DNA from: Planctomycetota bacterium
GTDB lineage: Bacteria > Planctomycetota > PUPC01 > JACPCR01
Assembly: GCA_016179685.1 (NCBI GenBank)
Contig: JACPCR010000056.1
Span: forward strand, 62,001-126,000
Length of the DNA: 64,000 nt
Reading direction: 5' to 3'
Below the pieces are notes generated by a model. That model was not told the origin of the DNA and made no database searches. It saw only the letters and a program-made list of their open reading frames with translations. A program made the position numbers and the translations under genes. Of the stretch, positions 25,508 to 38,415 are shown in pieces. How positions within the stretch are numbered: position 1 is the stretch's first letter; each line of letters starts with the position of its first letter.

Positions 25508-25659
25508 TTAGGCAAGCGCTGTGCTGTAATGATTGGACCTTCCGCATCCGACTTGGCAGAAGTCTGCAAGAATCGCCGGTTCTATTTCGGAGTTGCAGAA
25601 ATCTCCCAGGTGCGTCCTGCGGCAAGTGCAGAATTTGCGGATTTGCTCTGTTGAAACTC

Positions 25660-25905
25660 GATACCGCTTCAGGTCCCCTCTTCGGGGGCTAACAGGGAAG
25701 CCCGTGAAAATCGGGCGCGGTCCCGCCGCTGTCACCGGGGACGAAACCTGCCGACGTTCGCCAACGGGGTCGAACGCCACGCCACTTGCCCAAGCTGGGA
25801 AGGCGCAGGAAGTAGAAGAATCCGGAAGCCAGAAGACCTGCCTGGGGCAAAAGTTGGCCAGCCGTCCCGGATATGGACGGTCGCCGGCAACGTGGGATCA
25901 AGAAA
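25660..25905 (+). promoter_or_regulatory. Adenosylcobalamin (B12) riboswitch
   Basis: The conserved core is clear: AACAGGGAAGCCCGTGAAAA at 25691-25710, the GGTCCCGCCGCTGTCACC segment that follows, and the B12-box AGCCAGAAGACCTGCC at 25827-25842. The edges given are approximate. It precedes cobA and a strong intrinsic terminator, so B12 binding should stop transcription of the whole biosynthesis and cobalt-uptake operon. Known behaviour of the class is repression by adenosylcobalamin; the attenuation mode here is inferred from the terminator. Confidence 0.95.
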
Positions 25906-27364: not shown

Positions 27365-27403
27365 GTAACAAGTTTAAAAATAGTTAAAGAGGAGAAGCAT
27401 TTG

Positions 27404-28468
27404 ATGGGCCTCCTGGAATCCACACTGGGACGGATCGATCCACCGGACGCCGACGCGCGTGCGGAGGCCCGGGCGCGCCTGGCACGGCTGACGATGCCGC
27501 ACTGGGCGCTGGGCAGGCTCATGGACCTGGCGGAGGAACTGGCCGGGATGACGCGTTCGCTGCGTCCGCCTGTGGACCGCAAGACGGTAGTGACGATGGC
27601 GGGCGATCACGGCGTGGCGGTGGAGGGCGTGAGCCTGTATCCGCAGGCAGTGACGCAGCAGATGGTATGGAACTTCGTCCGGGGCGGGGCGGGCATCAAT
27701 GCGCTGGCCCGGCTCGTCGGGGCCCGGGTGGTGGTGGTGGACATGGGAGTCGCGGGCGATCTCGCCGACCTGGCCCGGGGGGGCAGGATCGTGTCTTGTC
27801 GTGTGGGGCCCGGGACGCGCAACCTGGCCGAGGGTCCTGCCATGAGCCGCGAGCAGGCGCTCCGATGCGTGGAGTCGGGGATCGCGGTCTCGCTTTCCCA
27901 AGGGGCGACGACGGACCTGTTCGGCACCGGAGACATGGGCATCGGGAACACGACGCCGAGCGCCGCCATGGTCGCCGCGTTCACCGGCCTGCCTCCCGAG
28001 GAGGTCACGGGCCGCGGCACCGGCATCGGCGACGACCTCTGGCGACGCAAGGTCGCCGTCATCCGGAAGGCGCTCGAGGTGAACCGCCCGGACGCCCGGG
28101 ACCCCCTGGACGTCCTGGCCAAGTTGGGTGGATTCGAGATAGGCGGCATTGCGGGCCTCATCCTGGGCGCGGCCTCGCAGCGGAAGCCAATCCTGGTGGA
28201 CGGGTTCATTTCTACCGCGGGAGCGCTCGTCGCACGGCGTCTGTCTCCGCCGGCTGCAGGCTACCTGATCGCAGCGCATCGCAGCGCGGAGGCCGGGCAC
28301 GGGGCCGCGCTCCGCGACCTGGGGAAGCAGCCTCTGCTGGACCTCGGCCTGCGGCTGGGCGAGGGCACGGGTTCTGCACTGGCCATGCACCTCGTCGAGG
28401 CCGCAGCCCGCATCCTGACCGAGGTCGCCACCTTCGAGGAGGCGGGCGTCGCGGAGGCCGAACGATGA
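27404..28468 (+). CDS. cobT: Nicotinate-nucleotide-dimethylbenzimidazole phosphoribosyltransferase CobT
   Basis: 354 residues from ATG 27404, with GAGGAG about 10 nt upstream; a TTG one codon earlier is possible. Motifs: VTMAGDHGVAVEGVSLYP, FVRGGAGINALAR, GTGDMGIGNTTPSAA, GRGTGIGDD and 'VDGFISTAGALVA'; catalytic Glu is likely in the C-terminal GEGTGSALAM region. It activates the lower-ligand base as alpha-ribazole phosphate. No bluB or bza gene for the base is in the window. Confidence 0.96.
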   Translation: MGLLESTLGRIDPPDADARAEARARLARLTMPHWALGRLMDLAEELAGMTRSLRPPVDRKTVVTMAGDHGVAVEGVSLYPQAVTQQMVWNFVRGGAGINALARLVGARVVVVDMGVAGDLADLARGGRIVSCRVGPGTRNLAEGPAMSREQALRCVESGIAVSLSQGATTDLFGTGDMGIGNTTPSAAMVAAFTGLPPEEVTGRGTGIGDDLWRRKVAVIRKALEVNRPDARDPLDVLAKLGGFEIGGIAGLILGAASQRKPILVDGFISTAGALVARRLSPPAAGYLIAAHRSAEAGHGAALRDLGKQPLLDLGLRLGEGTGSALAMHLVEAAARILTEVATFEEAGVAEAER

Positions 28469-31790: not shown

Positions 31791-32752
31791 GCCTGGAACA
31801 TCAAATTCTTTGGGCTCTCGGACTGGACTTGCTGCTGGGCGATCCGCGGTGGATTCCGCATCCCGTGCGGCTCATGGGGCGTCTGGCCCTGGCCCTGGAG
31901 TCGCCCCTTCGCCGGGTCGTCCGGAGTCCGAGGCGGGCCGGCGCGGCCGCGGCCTTCACCGTCCTTGCGGCGACGGCCGCCGTCACCGCCGCACTGGTCC
32001 TCGGGGCCCGGCGCATCCATCCCCTGGCCGGGGACCTCGTCTCGATCCTGCTGCTCTACACCACGCTGGCGGCGCGGGACCTGGCGCACCACAGCATGGA
32101 GGTCTACCGGGCGCTGCGATCGGGCGACCTGGCCGCGTCGCGCCGGAGGGCGGCCCGGATGGTCGGCCGCGACACGGACAAGCTGGACGAGCCGGAGGTG
32201 ATTCGTGCGGCGGTGGAGAGTGTGGCCGAGAGCACGGTGGACGGCGTGACGGCGCCGCTGTTTTACGCCTTCCTGGGGGGCCCCGTGGGCGCGATGCTTT
32301 ACAAGGCGGTGAACACGCTGGACTCGACCTTCGGCTACCGCGACGAGCGGTACGCCGAGTTCGGCTGGGCCTCGGCGCGAATCGACGATCTGGCCAACTA
32401 CCTGCCCGCCCGCGTCACCGCTCCTCTGATCGGCGTCTCGGCCGCGCTCCTTGGCCTCCGGCCCCTCCAATCCCTGCGGGTCCTCCTGCGCGACGGGCGG
32501 AAGCACCCGAGCCCGAACTCCGGCCTGCCGGAGGCTGCGGTGGCCGGCGCCCTGGGCGTCCAGCTCGGCGGAATGAACACCTACGCGGGTGAGCCTTCCG
32601 AAAAACCTCGATTGGGGGACCCTATCGTCTCCTTGCAGAGAAGGCACATCCTCCAGGTCAACGCGCTCATGCTCCTGACGACGGGCCTGGCCACAGCCCT
32701 GCTCCTGGCCGTCCGGGCGGGCCTCGAGTCGTGGAACGGAGGGACGCCTTGA
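31787..32752 (+). CDS. cbiB: Adenosylcobinamide-phosphate synthase CbiB
   Basis: 321 residues from ATG 31787 (ATGA overlap). Membrane protein with [71 protein letters not shown] and [20 protein letters not shown], the CbiB signatures. It attaches aminopropanol (phosphate) to adenosylcobyric acid, so it uses the product of both halves of the preceding fusion. Confidence 0.96.
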
Positions 32753-33297
32753 AAGAATCGAACGGGGGACGGCCGAGGAGCGCCCGCATCCTGCTCTTCA
32801 CGGGCGACGGCAAGGGGAAGACGACCGCGGCTTTGGGCCTGGCGGCCCGGGCCAGCGGGCACGGCCTGAGGGCTCTGGTGGTCCAGTTCATCAAGTCCGA
32901 TCCCTCGACGGGCGAGATGGAGACCTTCCGCCGACTCGGCGGGGTGGAAATCCAGCAGACCGGCCTCGGCTTCGTGCCCCCGCCGACGAGCCCGCACTTT
33001 TCGGAGCACCGGGCCGCGGCGGAAAGGGGCCTCGCCCTGGCCTCCGAGGCCCTTTCCTCGGGCCGGTACGACCTCCTCGTCCTGGACGAGGTCTGCAACG
33101 CCGTCGCCCGCGGCCTGCTCGAAGAGGCCCGGGTCATCCAGGCCATCCGGCAGGCGGGGCCCGCGACATGCGTCGTGATGACCGGCCGCGGCGCGACCGA
33201 GGGACTCGTCTCGCTGGCGGATACCGTGACGGAGATGCGTTGCGTCAAGCACGCTTACCACGCGGGCGTGTCCGCGCAGAAAGGAGTGGAGTTTTGA
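32749..33297 (+). CDS. cobO: Corrinoid adenosyltransferase (CobO/BtuR type)
   Basis: 182 residues from a TTG at 32749 that overlaps the cbiB stop as TTGA and has GGAGGG 5 nt upstream; an in-frame GTG at 32731 is less well placed. P-loop GDGKGKTTAALGLAARA, VVQFIKSD, and YDLLVLDEVCNAVARGLL with LTGR-like 'VMTGRGA'. Transfers the adenosyl group from ATP to cob(I)yrinic acid derivatives. Confidence 0.95.
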   Translation: MKESNGGRPRSARILLFTGDGKGKTTAALGLAARASGHGLRALVVQFIKSDPSTGEMETFRRLGGVEIQQTGLGFVPPPTSPHFSEHRAAAERGLALASEALSSGRYDLLVLDEVCNAVARGLLEEARVIQAIRQAGPATCVVMTGRGATEGLVSLADTVTEMRCVKHAYHAGVSAQKGVEF

Positions 33298-33328: not shown

Positions 33329-34090
33329 ATGACGGAAAAAAACCGATATCCCGTGGCGGCGGCGACGGGGCGCGCGGCAGGGCCCGTCCAAAGGGCCCTG
33401 ATCCATGCGTTCCTTGCCGACCCCATGAGCGGGCAGCAGATCGAGGAAAGGTCGTTCGAGATCATCGACCGAGAGGCGCCGGCCCATCCCTTCAACCCGG
33501 AGGAATGGAACGTGGTCCGCCGGATGGTCCACACCACCGGGGATTTCGGCCTGATCGGCTCGGTGCGCTTCTCCAACGGAAGCATCGACGCCGCGGAGGA
33601 GGCCTTGCGGAGCGGCCGCCCGCTCTACGTGGACTCCAACATGGTCCGGGCCGGCATATCCATGGACCGGTTGCAGAAGGTGTCCGGGACCTATCGACCC
33701 GAACACGTCGTCTGCCACGTGGCGGACGAGGATGTGGCGCGGCAAGCGCAGGCGGCCGGGCTGCCTCGCTCGCTCCTGGCCGTGCGCAAGGGAAAGCCGA
33801 TCCTGGACGGCGGGATCGGCGTGTTCGGCAACGCGCCGGTGGGATTGATGGAGCTGAATCGCCTGATCCTGGAGGAGGGGGTCCGGCCCGCGCTGGTGAT
33901 TGCCGTGCCCGTCGGCTTCGTTCACGTCGTCGAGAGCAAGGAAGAATTGATGTCGCTGGATGTTCCGTTCGTGGCCCTGGCGGGGAGACGTGGCGGGAGC
34001 ACGCTGGCCGTGAGCGTGGTCCATGCTCTCGCGTCCGTCGCTGTGACTCGCCGGGCCGTCCACTCCTGGGCCACGCCCGAGAGGAGGTGA
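33329..34090 (+). CDS. cbiC: Precorrin-8X / cobalt-precorrin-8 methylmutase CbiC
   Basis: 253 residues from ATG 33329. Motifs: IEERSFEIIDREA, VRRMVHTTGDFGLIGSVRFS with the catalytic His, PLYVDSNMVRAGIS, and GVFGNAPVGLMELNRLI followed by VGFVHVVESKEEL. Moves the C11 methyl to C12 to give cobyrinate. A slightly longer than usual C-terminus (AVHSWATPERR). The stop codon overlaps a possible GTG start of the downstream peptide gene. Confidence 0.95.
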   Translation: MTEKNRYPVAAATGRAAGPVQRALIHAFLADPMSGQQIEERSFEIIDREAPAHPFNPEEWNVVRRMVHTTGDFGLIGSVRFSNGSIDAAEEALRSGRPLYVDSNMVRAGISMDRLQKVSGTYRPEHVVCHVADEDVARQAQAAGLPRSLLAVRKGKPILDGGIGVFGNAPVGLMELNRLILEEGVRPALVIAVPVGFVHVVESKEELMSLDVPFVALAGRRGGSTLAVSVVHALASVAVTRRAVHSWATPERR

Positions 34091-34095
34091 AAGGT

Positions 34096-34206
34096 TTGGC
34101 AACGACGAAAAAGGCGAAAAAGGACGTGATCGCCTATCGCCGAGCCTGCTCGGCCAATGGAACGGGCCTCTCTCACTACATCCTAGTGGAGAAGAAGTCC
34201 AAGTAG
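34096..34206 (+). CDS. cbpA: 36-residue peptide, probable RiPP precursor (CbpA-like)
   Basis: 36 codons from a TTG at 34096, with GGAGGT 7 nt upstream; a GTG at 34087 (GTGA overlap with cbiC) would add three residues but leaves the ribosome-binding site too close. The peptide has a Lys/Ala-rich N-terminus (ATTKKAKKDV) and a C-terminal part with one cysteine (C18), a small-residue segment ACSANGTGLS, then HYILVEKKSK. It lies directly upstream of a radical SAM/SPASM gene. From memory, NCBI describes 'modified peptide precursor CbpA' next to 'peptide-modifying radical SAM enzyme CbpB' near cobalamin/cobalt genes; this pair fits that description. The modification and role are unknown. Confidence 0.75.
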   Translation: MATTKKAKKDVIAYRRACSANGTGLSHYILVEKKSK

Positions 34207-34222
34207 GCCGGCCGTGCTCAAG

Positions 34223-34255
34223 CTGGACGCCCCGGCGCAGCGCCGGGGCGTCCAG
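34223..34255. repeat. Very stable hairpin between the peptide gene and the radical SAM gene
   Basis: Perfect 15-bp GC-rich arms (CTGGACGCCCCGGCG at 34223-34237 and its complement at 34241-34255) with loop CAG, starting 17 nt after the cbpA stop. There is no T-run, so it looks like a partial terminator or an mRNA-stabilising barrier that would leave more precursor than enzyme message. Confidence 0.8.
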
Positions 34256-34386
34256 TATCGGAGTCACGCCGATTTCCGCTGGGACGACGGAACGCGCCCT
34301 GCAGCGGCCATTCGGGCGGTCGCACAAAGGTTGAGGATTCTTGACTTCTCGGAATGGGAATCACCACGAACCAGGGGGAAACAGGA

Positions 34387-35799
34387 ATGAACGAGATGAG
34401 GACCGGAGTCGGCGCAGCCTCCTCGCGCGGGATGTACATGAATACGGGCAGGGGGCCGACCTTTCAGCCGCTCGATATCGGGCATCCGGACTACGTGGCG
34501 CTCGTGGACCCGGACACGGCGTTTTGGTCCCTGGTCCTGAAGGAAAAGGTGGGGCAGGCGCTGGCCGGCGGCTCGCTGCTGAAAGAGTATCGGCAAAAGC
34601 TCGAGGCCTGCTCGGCCGAGATGGAAACGCTCCGGTTCGGCCTCCGGCCTTCGGCGGTGTATTTCAATCCGACGGACCGCTGCAATCTGAACTGCCAGTA
34701 CTGTTACATCCCGGAAGCCATGCGCCGGGGCGGGGTGCAGATGTCGGAAGCACGGATGATGGAGGCGCTGGCCATCTTGAAGGCGTATTTCGGGCGGGCG
34801 CTTCCGGCGGGCCGGCTGCCGCAGGTGGTGTTTCACGGGGCGGAGCCTCTATTGAACCGCGACGCCCTGTTCGCGGCGATCGAGCGATACCGGACCGATT
34901 TCCGATTCGGTGTGCAGACCAACGGCACGCTGCTGGACGAATCGGCAGTGGACTTTCTGACCTCGCGTGACGTGAGTCTCGGGCTTTCCCTGGACGGCCA
35001 CGTCGAGGAGGTGGCGGACCGCACGCGCCGGACCTGGTCCGGGGCAGGCGCCTCCCGAAAGGTCGTCCAGGCCATTGAACGACTGAGGGGCTACGGCAGT
35101 TTCAGCGTCCTCTGCACCGTATCGAAGGCGAACCTCCGCGAGCTCCCGAAGATCGTGGATTTCTTCCATGACCTGGAGGTGCCCTATTGCATGCTGAACC
35201 CGCTCCGTTGCACGCAGGAGCGGGCCCGCGGCCTGAAGCCGCCGGACGAGGAGGCCGTGCCCCACTACCTGGCGGCTCTGGACCGGACCTATGAGCGATA
35301 CGAGGAGACGGGCCGGAAACTGATCGTCGTCAACTTTGCGAACATCCTGTTGAGCCTGGTGGCCCCGGCCGCCCGGCGTCTCATGTGCGACATTTCGCCC
35401 TGCGGCGGGGGCCGGTGCTTTTTCGCCCTGTCCGCGAGCGGCGACCTCTATCCCTGCAGCGAGTTCATCGGGCTGGAGGAGTTCTGCGGCGGCAACCTCT
35501 TCCGCGGCGAGCTGGAGAAGGCGCTGGCCAGCCCGGCCTTCCGGACCGTCACGGACCGGAAGGTGGAGGGCATCGAGCCGTGCGCCCGCTGCGCGATCCG
35601 GCACTTCTGCGGGTCGCCGTGCCCCGCGGAGGCCCATGCGATGAACGGGGGCATGAGCCGGCCGGGCGCCTTCTGCGAATTCTACGAGGAACAGGTCCGC
35701 TACGCCTTCCGGCTGATCGCGGACGGGAAGGAGGCCGCGTATCTGTATGACGATTGGGACCGAGGGATGACCGAGACCTTGAACATTTCATCCTTGTGA
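34387..35799 (+). CDS. cbpB: Radical SAM/SPASM peptide-modifying enzyme (CbpB-like)
   Basis: 470 residues from ATG 34387, with ACAGGA immediately upstream; an earlier in-frame ATG at 34354 lacks a site. The radical SAM cluster motif C-NLN-C-QY-C is at C99, C103, C106 (FNPTDRCNLNCQYCYIPEAM), followed by VVFHGAEPLLN and QTNGTLLDE. The C-terminal SPASM region is Cys-rich: LMCDISPCGGGRCFF, SGDLYPCSEFIG, EPCARCAIRHFCGSPCPAE and GAFCEFYEEQ, enough for two auxiliary clusters. SPASM proteins of this length modify ribosomal peptides, and the 36-residue gene upstream is the obvious substrate. An N-terminal ~90-residue region may hold a peptide-recognition element. Confidence 0.88.
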   Translation: MNEMRTGVGAASSRGMYMNTGRGPTFQPLDIGHPDYVALVDPDTAFWSLVLKEKVGQALAGGSLLKEYRQKLEACSAEMETLRFGLRPSAVYFNPTDRCNLNCQYCYIPEAMRRGGVQMSEARMMEALAILKAYFGRALPAGRLPQVVFHGAEPLLNRDALFAAIERYRTDFRFGVQTNGTLLDESAVDFLTSRDVSLGLSLDGHVEEVADRTRRTWSGAGASRKVVQAIERLRGYGSFSVLCTVSKANLRELPKIVDFFHDLEVPYCMLNPLRCTQERARGLKPPDEEAVPHYLAALDRTYERYEETGRKLIVVNFANILLSLVAPAARRLMCDISPCGGGRCFFALSASGDLYPCSEFIGLEEFCGGNLFRGELEKALASPAFRTVTDRKVEGIEPCARCAIRHFCGSPCPAEAHAMNGGMSRPGAFCEFYEEQVRYAFRLIADGKEAAYLYDDWDRGMTETLNISSL

Positions 35800-35815: not shown

Positions 35816-36280
35816 ATGAATTCTGACGAGAAGACGGCCGTGGTCCTTCTGGGCCACGGCAGCCGCGTGCCGGATGCCGCCGAGGCGATGGAGCAGGTGG
35901 CCGCGAAGCTGAGACAGCGATACCCGATCGTGGAGACCTGCTCGATGTCCCTGCGCGGCCCCTTGCTGCCCGAGGCCCTCGCGAAGTGCGTCCGTCTCGG
36001 GGTGTCGAAGATCGTCGTGATTCCGTACTTCCTCCACCAGGGGATGCACCTGCACGTGGACATCCCGGCGATGATGCAGGAGGCGGCCCGGGACTGCCCG
36101 CACGTGAAGCTGGTCCTGGGCAAGCACCTCGGATTCGACGAGTCGCTGGTGAACCTGGTGGCGAGGCGCATCGAGGAATCGGAGGGTCTGAACGACGTGC
36201 GGGATCTGAAGCTGAGAGCGGAAGAGGAACTGGTGGAATGCGCCCCGGACGCGGGCTTTCAGTCGCAGCCTCAGAGATGA
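35816..36280 (+). CDS. cbiX: Sirohydrochlorin cobaltochelatase CbiX (short form)
   Basis: 154 residues, with AGGAGG 7-8 nt before ATG 35816. Short-form CbiX motifs: VVLLGHGSRVPDAAEAM with the first metal-binding His, and VVIPYFLHQGMHLHVDIP with the second His cluster. Inserts Co(II) into sirohydrochlorin, which places the pathway on the anaerobic branch. The C-terminal ~25 residues (CAPDAGFQSQPQR) are not conserved. Confidence 0.93.
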   Translation: MNSDEKTAVVLLGHGSRVPDAAEAMEQVAAKLRQRYPIVETCSMSLRGPLLPEALAKCVRLGVSKIVVIPYFLHQGMHLHVDIPAMMQEAARDCPHVKLVLGKHLGFDESLVNLVARRIEESEGLNDVRDLKLRAEEELVECAPDAGFQSQPQR

Positions 36281-36293
36281 AAGGAGAGAACCC

Positions 36294-37646
36294 ATGAGAG
36301 CCCTCAGGAAGCCCAAGGTCCCACCGCGGATTTCATTCGCAACCGAAGAAGAGTTTCCCCACGGATTCTCCGTTAGGATGCCGTTGGGACCCGTCCCTAT
36401 GGGAAGGAGGACCGCGGATGGGAAAACTCAGCACTCGCTCATCACCCAGACGTTCGCCGGCAAGCCGATGGTTCTCGCCGCCGCGGCGGTTCTGTGGCCC
36501 GCCACCGCCTCGGCGATGCACATCTCGGAGGGCATCCTGCCGGCGCCCTGGGCCGCCCTCTGGTTTCTGGCTTCTCTGCCCTTCCTGGCGCTGGGCATGT
36601 GGCGGCTGCGGGAGCGAAGCCGACCCGACCCCCACTTCAAGGCGCTGGTGGGCCTCGTGGGGTCCGCGGTCTTCATCATCTCCTGCATGCCGGTGCCCGT
36701 GCCGACCGCGGGCACCTGCTCGCATCCCTGCGGCACGGGCCTGGCCGCCATCTTGATTGGACCCGCCCTCACCGTCGTCGTCACGAGCGTCGCGCTGACG
36801 CTCCAGGCGCTCTTCCTGGCCCACGGAGGCCTCACGACGCTCGGGGCCGACATCGTCTCCATGGGCGTGGCGGGCGCCTTCGTCGGATACGGCGTCTTCC
36901 GGCTGCTCCTCCGGCTGCGCGCGCCGCTCGCCGTTGCCGCCTTTGCCGCGGGCCTCCTGTCCGACTGGGCCACCTACGCGGTCACGTCCTTCGAGTTGGC
37001 CTCCGCCCTCCACGGCGACGGCAGCCTCTCCCAGATGTTCGTCGCCATCCTCGTCGCCTTCGTGCCGACCCAGTTGCCCCTGGGGATTCTCGAAGGCTTC
37101 CTCTGCGCAGGCGCCTTCCGGTTCGTCCGCTCGCGTCGGCCCGAACTGCTCCTGAGCCTGCTCGGACTCGACGCCCGAAGGGCCTCCGCTCTTCCCGCAT
37201 CGAATCGCAGCGCCGGCTTTCTGCCGCGACCGAATGGGGAAGAAATCCTCCGGACAAGATTCTCGGTCCGCAGGATTTTCGATTCGGCAACCGCGTTGCT
37301 CCAGCGCCGCGCCCGCCTGCGGCACGGGCGCGACCGCCGCGGGCGCGTCAAGCATCCCCTTTTCCCCTTCGTGGCCGGAGCGGTCCTTCTCGCCGCCCTG
37401 GCCGCCGGACCAGCCCGGCACGCCGCGGGCGCGGACTGGTCCGGCGTCGATGAGACCGTCGTGGAGAAGTTCGCCCGGGAGGCGAACCGGCCAGCCCGCA
37501 AGCCGTTCATCAACACCGATCAGGGCGACCTGCTCCTGTTTGTCTTTCTGGTCGCTGGGACCGCTGGCGGCTTCCTCGGCGGCTACTACTTCCGTGAACT
37601 GTTTCCACCCCGGGGCAAGAACCCGGAGAAGCCGGCGGATGTTTGA
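36294..37646 (+). CDS. cbiM: Cobalt ECF transporter substrate component CbiM with CbiN-like C-terminal extension
   Basis: Open frame of 450 residues. M75-H76 begins AMHISEGILPAPW, the N-terminus of mature CbiM; the preceding VLAAAAVLWPATASA looks like a signal peptide whose cleavage after ASA would expose Met-His, as CbiM needs to bind Co(II). About six membrane helices follow. After a polar linker (residues ~285-355) there is a second region with a helix, AGADWSGVDETVVEKFAREA and a final helix (LLLFVFLVAGTAGGFLGGYYF), resembling CbiN/PDGLE domains. ATG 36294 has AAGGAGAG, but residues ~8-45 run through intergenic-type repeat sequence, so the start is uncertain. Confidence 0.85.
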   Translation: MRALRKPKVPPRISFATEEEFPHGFSVRMPLGPVPMGRRTADGKTQHSLITQTFAGKPMVLAAAAVLWPATASAMHISEGILPAPWAALWFLASLPFLALGMWRLRERSRPDPHFKALVGLVGSAVFIISCMPVPVPTAGTCSHPCGTGLAAILIGPALTVVVTSVALTLQALFLAHGGLTTLGADIVSMGVAGAFVGYGVFRLLLRLRAPLAVAAFAAGLLSDWATYAVTSFELASALHGDGSLSQMFVAILVAFVPTQLPLGILEGFLCAGAFRFVRSRRPELLLSLLGLDARRASALPASNRSAGFLPRPNGEEILRTRFSVRRIFDSATALLQRRARLRHGRDRRGRVKHPLFPFVAGAVLLAALAAGPARHAAGADWSGVDETVVEKFAREANRPARKPFINTDQGDLLLFVFLVAGTAGGFLGGYYFRELFPPRGKNPEKPADV

Positions 37647-38415
37647 TCTTTTTTCGGACATTTTTTCCTCGCGTGAGAACGCGCTGACTCGGGTGGACGC
37701 CCGAGCCAAGCTCGGGATCGCTCTGCTCGGCCTCCTGGCGGTCCTGCTCTCGACGCGGCCGGTCCTGCCGCTGGCCGCGCTGGTCCTGTGCCTGGCGGGC
37801 GGGCTGCTCCTCGGACTTCCTCTCCCGCTGCTGGTCTTCCGGCTGCTGGCCCCGGCGGGCATCGTCTTGGTCCTGCTCCTCGTGCAGGCCTTCACGACGG
37901 GCTCGACGCCACTCTGCTCGTTCTCGGTGGGCGGCTGCGAGCTGACCGCCACGCGGGAAGGCGCCTGGCGCGGGCTCGTCATGGCCGCCCGCGTCCTCGG
38001 CGCGGTCAGCATCGTCCTGCTCCTCGGCGTCGTCACGCCCGCGCACCGCCTGTTCCAAGCCCTGCGCTCCCTCGGCCTCTCCGCCGCCTGGGTCGAGATC
38101 GCCATGCTCATGTACCGCTACACCTTCGTCTTCCTCGAACAGGCCGAGGAGGTTGCCACGGCCCAGAAACTGCGCCTGGGCTACGACGGACTCCGGCGCT
38201 CCCTGGCCTCCCTGGGCGTCCTGGCGGGGACCGTGGTCCTGCGGTCCGTGGACCAGGCCCAGCACACGCACGAGGCAATGACCCTGCGGGGCTACTCAGG
38301 CCAGATACCCTTCGGCCCCACACCCGCCCTCTCCGGCCGGGACTGGCGGCTTCTGGGAGCGTCCTCCGCGGCGCTGCTCCTGGCCTACCTCCTGCTCGAA
38401 GGGGGTCTGAAGTGA
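37639..38415 (+). CDS. cbiQ: Cobalt ECF transporter transmembrane protein CbiQ
   Basis: 258 residues from ATG 37639, overlapping the cbiM stop by 8 nt. Starts MFDLFSDIFSSRENALTRVD and has the CbiQ features DARAKLG near the N-terminus, five to six hydrophobic helices, and the coupling motifs (VEIAMLMYRYTFVFLEQAEE; HEAMTLRGYSG). It connects CbiM to the ATPase CbiO. Confidence 0.95.
   Translation: MFDLFSDIFSSRENALTRVDARAKLGIALLGLLAVLLSTRPVLPLAALVLCLAGGLLLGLPLPLLVFRLLAPAGIVLVLLLVQAFTTGSTPLCSFSVGGCELTATREGAWRGLVMAARVLGAVSIVLLLGVVTPAHRLFQALRSLGLSAAWVEIAMLMYRYTFVFLEQAEEVATAQKLRLGYDGLRRSLASLGVLAGTVVLRSVDQAQHTHEAMTLRGYSGQIPFGPTPALSGRDWRLLGASSAALLLAYLLLEGGLK

Follow-up and report, generated by a model that had tools for sequence, protein, structure and literature searches.

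CbpA and CbpB, a conserved peptide and radical SAM/SPASM enzyme pair linked to cobalamin riboswitches and possibly serving corrinoid salvage or late cobamide assembly

The window analysed here, a 64-kb stretch of DNA (64,000 nucleotides of contig JACPCR010000056.1) from a Planctomycetota bacterium, incorporates a closely packed run of cobalamin (B12) and cobalt transport genes on the plus strand, headed by a cobalamin riboswitch (25654..25859, plus strand; RF00174 in Rfam, 101.2 bits against a gathering value of 31.5). This riboswitch is the only one of its kind in the window, and lies 8.2 kb 5' of, and on the same strand as, a short peptide gene (cbpA) which precedes a gene for a radical SAM/SPASM enzyme (cbpB). 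The plus strand 5' of this pair encodes cobU, cobT (27401..28468; TIGR03160, 436 bits), cbiB, the corrinoid adenosyltransferase cobA/btuR (32731..33297; PRK05986 and TIGR00708, each just under the cut-off) and the precorrin-8X/cobalt-precorrin-8 methylmutase cbiC (33329..34090; PF02570, 215 bits), which ends 5 nt before cbpA. On the 3' side, the same strand carries the sirohydrochlorin chelatase cbiX (35816..36280; PF01903), starting 16 nt after cbpB, the cobalt ECF transporter S component cbiM (36294..37646; TIGR00123, 192.6 bits, matching from residue 75) and T component cbiQ (37234..38415; TIGR02454, 147.8 bits, matching from residue 154), followed by cbiD and tetrapyrrole methylases. On the basis of gene spacing, a single transcript may run from the riboswitch through cbpAB. 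A preliminary description of this DNA had placed the pair between B12 and cobalt genes under one riboswitch, and this arrangement is borne out by the feature matches.

The cbpA gene (34096..34206, plus strand) starts with TTG at 34096, ends with a stop codon at 34204-34206 and encodes a precursor peptide of 36 amino acids, MATTKKAKKDVIAYRRACSANGTGLSHYILVEKKSK. It is preceded by a Shine-Dalgarno sequence, AGGAGG (34082..34087, plus strand), 8 nt before the start codon, in line with the 36-codon gene with a ribosome-binding site previously seen between cbiC and the SPASM radical SAM gene. The peptide, which contains one Cys, matches the NCBIfam model 'modified peptide precursor CbpA' (TIGR04164) with 46.7 bits (E 1.6e-12), above the cut-off of 35. 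Two segments can be distinguished, namely residues 11-17 (VIAYRRA; 34126..34146, plus strand) and a core, C18-S-A-N-G-T-G-L-S-H-Y-I29 (34147..34182, plus strand), which contains residues that are invariant in the alignment of homologous peptides. The spacer between cbpA and cbpB incorporates a 16-bp hairpin (34222..34256, plus strand) without a T-run, and the surrounding 200 nt have a fold z-score of -3.0. This hairpin may control the ratio of peptide to enzyme. Long perfect hairpins without a T-run were also observed in the cbpA-cbpB spacer of four homologous loci (L010, L035, L058 and L060).

The cbpB gene (34387..35799, plus strand) encodes an enzyme of 470 amino acids with PF04055 and PF13186 domains, and matches TIGR04163 with 693 bits over the full model (NCBIfam cut-off 375). 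While the longest open reading frame spans 34354-35799 (481 amino acids), a good Shine-Dalgarno sequence (AGGGGG) only precedes the ATG at 34387, which is most likely the start codon and from which residues are numbered here. The CxxxCxxC motif noted previously is present (C99, C103 and C106), but the last 140 residues contain ten further Cys residues rather than the dozen or so reported, eight of which are invariant among 77 homologues. Seven of these fit the SPASM pattern Cx9-15Gx4C-gap-Cx2Cx5Cx3C-gap-C (C339-x12-G-x4-C357, C399-x2-C402-x5-C408-x3-C412 and C430), and are, like the CxxxCxxC motif, invariant in the 77 homologues. The eighth conserved Cys, C334, occupies a position resembling that of a cluster ligand in the anaerobic sulfatase-maturating enzyme (anSME), where the auxiliary clusters are ligated entirely by Cys (PMC8326336). 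By analogy, this suggests that the auxiliary clusters of CbpB are fully ligated, and is mild evidence against the direct capture of a thiolate that has been proposed for thioether-forming enzymes.

With both the peptide and the enzyme above their equivalog cut-offs and in identical gene order, the window pair belongs to the CbpA/CbpB families of NCBIfam, and the names given in the preliminary description are thus correct. Pairs already carry these names in public annotation, for example on the Methylovirgula plasmid pHY1. The open literature searched contained no papers on either NCBIfam family (TIGR04163 and TIGR04164) or on a RiPP controlled by a cobalamin riboswitch, nor any description of the product or its function, so that CbpA/CbpB is apparently a named family whose biology is unpublished.

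Comparison with better known systems places CbpB close to several SPASM maturases. The second-best NCBIfam model is that of the freyrasin-type ranthipeptide maturase PapB (137 bits against a cut-off of 340), the substrates of which carry a Cys-x3-Asp/Glu motif with a Cys-x3-Asp acceptor, whereas CbpA has C-x3-Gly. The best PDB sequence match is CteB (81 bits), which is also among the nearest folds to the AlphaFold model of CbpB (5why, TMt 0.74), along with anSME (TMt 0.84). The CbpB score against the anSME model is 119 bits, below the cut-off of 349, and anSME acts on a sulfatase rather than on a dedicated peptide. The SCIFF/ranthipeptide system (CteA/CteB) likewise combines a SPASM maturase with a short and widely conserved peptide whose role is uncertain, and the link reported in SCIFF, Cys32-Thr37 (PMC8326336), has the same spacing as the C-x4-T of most CbpA peptides. 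However, SCIFF contains six Cys in approximately 45 residues as opposed to one in CbpA, CbpB scores 112 bits against a SCIFF maturase cut-off of 425, and control by a B12 riboswitch is a feature of CbpA/CbpB. A SCIFF-spaced Cys-Thr bridge was rejected as the general product, since some clade I peptides have Ala, Val or Ile in place of the Thr, and the divergent clade II described below has Asn. A resemblance to ribosomal protein L33 (SSAGTGHFY as against CKAxGTGLSHY) was also discarded, with no Pfam match of CbpA to L33 even at an E-value of 10, and PDB matches of CbpA to antibody heavy chains were considered to be due to chance.

Docking was modelled with AlphaFold2 on a read-through CbpA-CbpB fusion folded as a single chain, for which few paired alignment rows were available. 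In the fused window pair, VIAYRRA forms a confident strand (pLDDT 86) beside a disordered linker, and the homologous VIAYRK segment docks likewise in the fused pair of a second species, an Omnitrophota bacterium (L065). Confidence in the CbpA core is low in the fused models (48-57). The models are consistent with the VIAYRK segment being the part of CbpA which is recognised and bound by CbpB.

GTDB genomes were scanned with a CbpB alignment, which yielded 228 relatives; 80 loci were retained, and 78 were usable once duplicates and cases at contig edges had been removed. In all 78, derived from about fourteen phyla, cbpA immediately precedes cbpB in the same orientation, and since the same peptide precedes the enzyme in every usable locus, the pairing extends beyond chance. 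The peptide core is conserved as R-K-x-C-x3-G-T-G-L-S-H-Y, with R in 77/77 peptides, C in 77/78, T in 69 (otherwise A, V or I), both G, L and H in all 78, S in 76 and Y in 75 (otherwise F), while C, both G, L and H are invariant in an alignment of 54 peptides. Strong purifying selection on the peptide frame is evident (mean pS 0.77 versus pN 0.23), with pN values of 0.02-0.03 at high or saturated dS among near pairs. Both the constant pairing and the selection on the frame are as expected of the peptide gene first proposed. Two natural CbpA peptides from different clades (L056 and L120) carry Gly instead of the Cys, with CbpB present; the Cys may be non-essential, or these copies may have decayed or been misread. 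In the CbpB tree, phyla such as Chloroflexota, Bacillota, Thermodesulfobacteriota, Myxococcota, Nitrospirota, Planctomycetota, Verrucomicrobiota, Omnitrophota, Elusimicrobiota and Acidobacteriota are intermingled, with some labels being old MAG names, and this intermingling suggests that cbpAB has been spread by horizontal transfer. Carriage by phages was rejected, as no CbpAB relative was found in viral contigs.

Clade II comprises divergent CbpB proteins (460-525 bits) in fourteen Omnitrophota genomes (L109-L122, L123-L136), with peptides such as SYRLKCAKTANGLSHFVMYGD. The peptide and enzyme are paired in 14/14 of these genomes, and 13/14 pairs lie within B12 operons, among CobU/CobT/CobS/CbiB/CobQ/CbiA or adjoining DUF71, while no riboswitch was found within 1.5 kb. 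Clades I and II share the pattern YR-x2-C-x5-G-L-S-H-[YF]-[VI]. GLSH[YF] is thus retained in the clade II peptides, which have Asn at the Thr position and in which the replacement of Tyr by Phe is above all found. This replacement bears on the proposal that a small molecule, such as a lower-ligand base or phenol, is cut from CbpA. Salvaging organisms need a lower ligand and cobT is encoded closely 3' of cbpB in two loci (L030 and L048), but with a Tyr that can be Phe, no peptidase beside the pair and no anaerobic lower-ligand route that is known to need a peptide, this is the least probable of the explanations considered and a very improbable one.

The genomic context of the pair varies. At least two B12 gene families flank 31 of the 83 loci classified, 45 lack such neighbours and seven are too short to classify. 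In many of these 45, a B12-box was nevertheless detected approximately 200-450 nt before the cbpA stop codon, and RF00174 was identified with Infernal directly 5' of cbpA in 36/42 loci tested, most of which are without B12 genes alongside. Among these 42 loci it was missing in L015, L074, L079 and the Methylovirgula plasmid, while the contigs of L038 and L039 are too short. Operon-embedded and other contexts have been swapped at least eight times on supported branches of the CbpB tree. Since stand-alone loci have a cobalamin riboswitch of their own and contexts were swapped repeatedly, B12 control appears to be retained with or without adjacent B12 genes, and riboswitch, cbpA and cbpB may together constitute a stand-alone B12-sensing unit. 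This retained association is the strongest evidence for placing CbpA in B12 physiology, and it agrees with the expectation that the peptide would be produced when B12 is low.

The neighbourhoods of the homologous loci also bear on the notion that CbpA is the precursor of an exported signal or antimicrobial RiPP released at low B12. SPASM enzymes often produce secreted RiPPs, and work cited in PMC8326336 has connected SCIFF-derived ranthipeptides with quorum sensing. However, no exporter, immunity gene or protease was found to recur beside the cbpAB units in these neighbourhoods, and a core that is nearly invariant over some fourteen phyla is unlike those of antimicrobial peptides. Export is accordingly considered quite improbable, and the secreted metallophore or signal among the functions originally suggested is disfavoured for these two-gene units.

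Gene content was used to delimit the step of B12 metabolism concerned, in counts which include many incomplete MAGs and ignore kinship. Among fifty cbpAB genomes, CbiC, which takes part in corrin ring synthesis, is encoded in 28 and lacking in 22, while CobS and CobT are each encoded in 42, one or the other in 46, and BtuR in 42. CobS or CobT is kept in 18 of the 22 CbiC-lacking genomes, most of which are drafts, with the exception of a complete Omnitrophota chromosome (CP070837.1; L065) encoding cbpAB, CobS and CobT but not CbiC. In an Omnitrophota sample, CobS occurs in 102/285 genomes, and these 102 include every one of the 26 that carry cbpB (hypergeometric 2.5e-13, kinship ignored). CobS and CobT are common among B12-using genomes, and their link to cbpAB may therefore reflect general B12 use. 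As cbpB is present in just 26 of the 102 CobS-positive genomes, cbpAB can be regarded as accessory. The B12-binding domain PF02310 was present in 20/20 genomes tested and is uninformative in this regard.

These counts are pertinent to the cobalt chaperone or chelator previously put forward, whereby CbpA would deliver cobalt to CbiX or scavenge it for CbiMNQO. The position of cbpAB between cbiC and cbiX/cbiM in the window and several other loci, together with the Cys and His as candidate ligands, would suit such a role. In the 22/50 cbpAB genomes lacking CbiC, including the complete chromosome with CobS and CobT, no corrin ring is made and there is therefore none to receive cobalt, and many cbpAB units lie far from cobalt genes, which renders a cobalt chelator or chaperone improbable, if less so than an exported peptide. 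The best reading of the gene content would be that cbpAB is accessory to cobamide salvage or completion, away from ring synthesis and cobalt insertion, and corrinoid handling fits best among the functions first suggested.

A sequence of events can be proposed on this basis. Under cobamide scarcity, expression of cbpA and cbpB would be permitted by the cobalamin riboswitch, whether that of the pair itself or that at the head of the operon. CbpA would dock onto CbpB through the predicted VIAYRK strand, and CbpB would introduce a radical modification within the conserved C-x5-G-L-S-H-[YF] segment. Once mature, the peptide would presumably remain intracellular, where it may serve a step common to corrinoid salvage and late cobamide assembly. 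In the most likely version, CbpA would bind or carry corrinoids that are incomplete and base-off, for which the invariant His and Cys are candidate ligands; such a role is favoured because incomplete corrinoids lack the lower base, so that the His could fill the site. The pair probably helps the cell to acquire or finish B12. The proposition that the two genes form a peptide modification system, induced by B12 starvation and serving corrinoid salvage or late assembly, is one for which we consider the case evenly balanced, while the binding of corrinoids by CbpA, taken as a single step, is possible yet doubtful.

The main rival holds that the modified peptide is a redox cofactor, in which a crosslinked or oxidised Cys, His or Tyr passes the electrons required either for the reduction of corrinoid cobalt ahead of adenosylation or for the recovery of B12 enzymes that have become inactivated. 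The CbpA core is conserved in the manner of cofactor precursors, PqqA for example, and BtuR, found in 42/50 cbpAB genomes, is encoded close upstream in the window. As the Tyr is Phe in several CbpA peptides, above all in clade II, and no recurrent dedicated reductase was found in the cbpAB neighbourhoods of homologous loci, this cofactor is deemed unlikely, though the least so of the alternatives. The frequency of BtuR also led to rejection of CbpB as a stand-in corrinoid adenosyltransferase acting through its own 5'-deoxyadenosyl radical, there being no gap for it to close.

Returning to corrinoid salvage and assembly, CbpA may tentatively be viewed, with somewhat more doubt than belief, as the first ribosomal radical-modified peptide for B12 homeostasis, an intracellular corrinoid ligand, carrier or cofactor, which is riboswitch-controlled and has been spread horizontally over about fourteen phyla, mostly from anaerobic habitats and including salvage-only organisms. 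B12 metabolism is well mapped, yet cbpAB is conserved in its operons and riboswitch regulon over these phyla. Beyond what the NCBIfam naming conveys, the present analysis documents units with their own riboswitch, genomes restricted to salvage and a divergent clade. Corrinoid supply shapes anaerobe communities, and the corrinoid reading, if true, would add a ribosomal peptide with a radical modification to the known components of anaerobic cofactor salvage. The role of CbpA is directly testable, as the inducing condition is known from the riboswitch and a unit of two genes is simple to co-express.

Some loci differ further in terms of their neighbouring genes. DUF71-B12 proteins, a family of unknown function in the ATP-pyrophosphatase family tied to B12 salvage (PMC3541065), often adjoin cbpB in Omnitrophota and relatives; the tie to B12 salvage is common to both, although DUF71-B12 is not a peptide system. 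In five loci (L031, L043, L045, L065 and L090), an asparagine-synthase-like PP-loop gene (PF00733) occurs directly 5', and DUF71 (PF01902) directly 3', of cbpAB; four of the five also have a small radical SAM gene further along. The PF00733-cbpAB-DUF71 grouping is possibly a larger corrinoid salvage module. On the Methylovirgula plasmid (L012, 14804-16383), cbpAB occurs without a cobalamin riboswitch, near pqqADE and a Crp/Fnr regulator. Furthermore, matches to the Acido-Lenti-1 RNA were observed near cbpAB in two loci (L061, 12646-12691 and 14339-14384; L021, 2920-2964).
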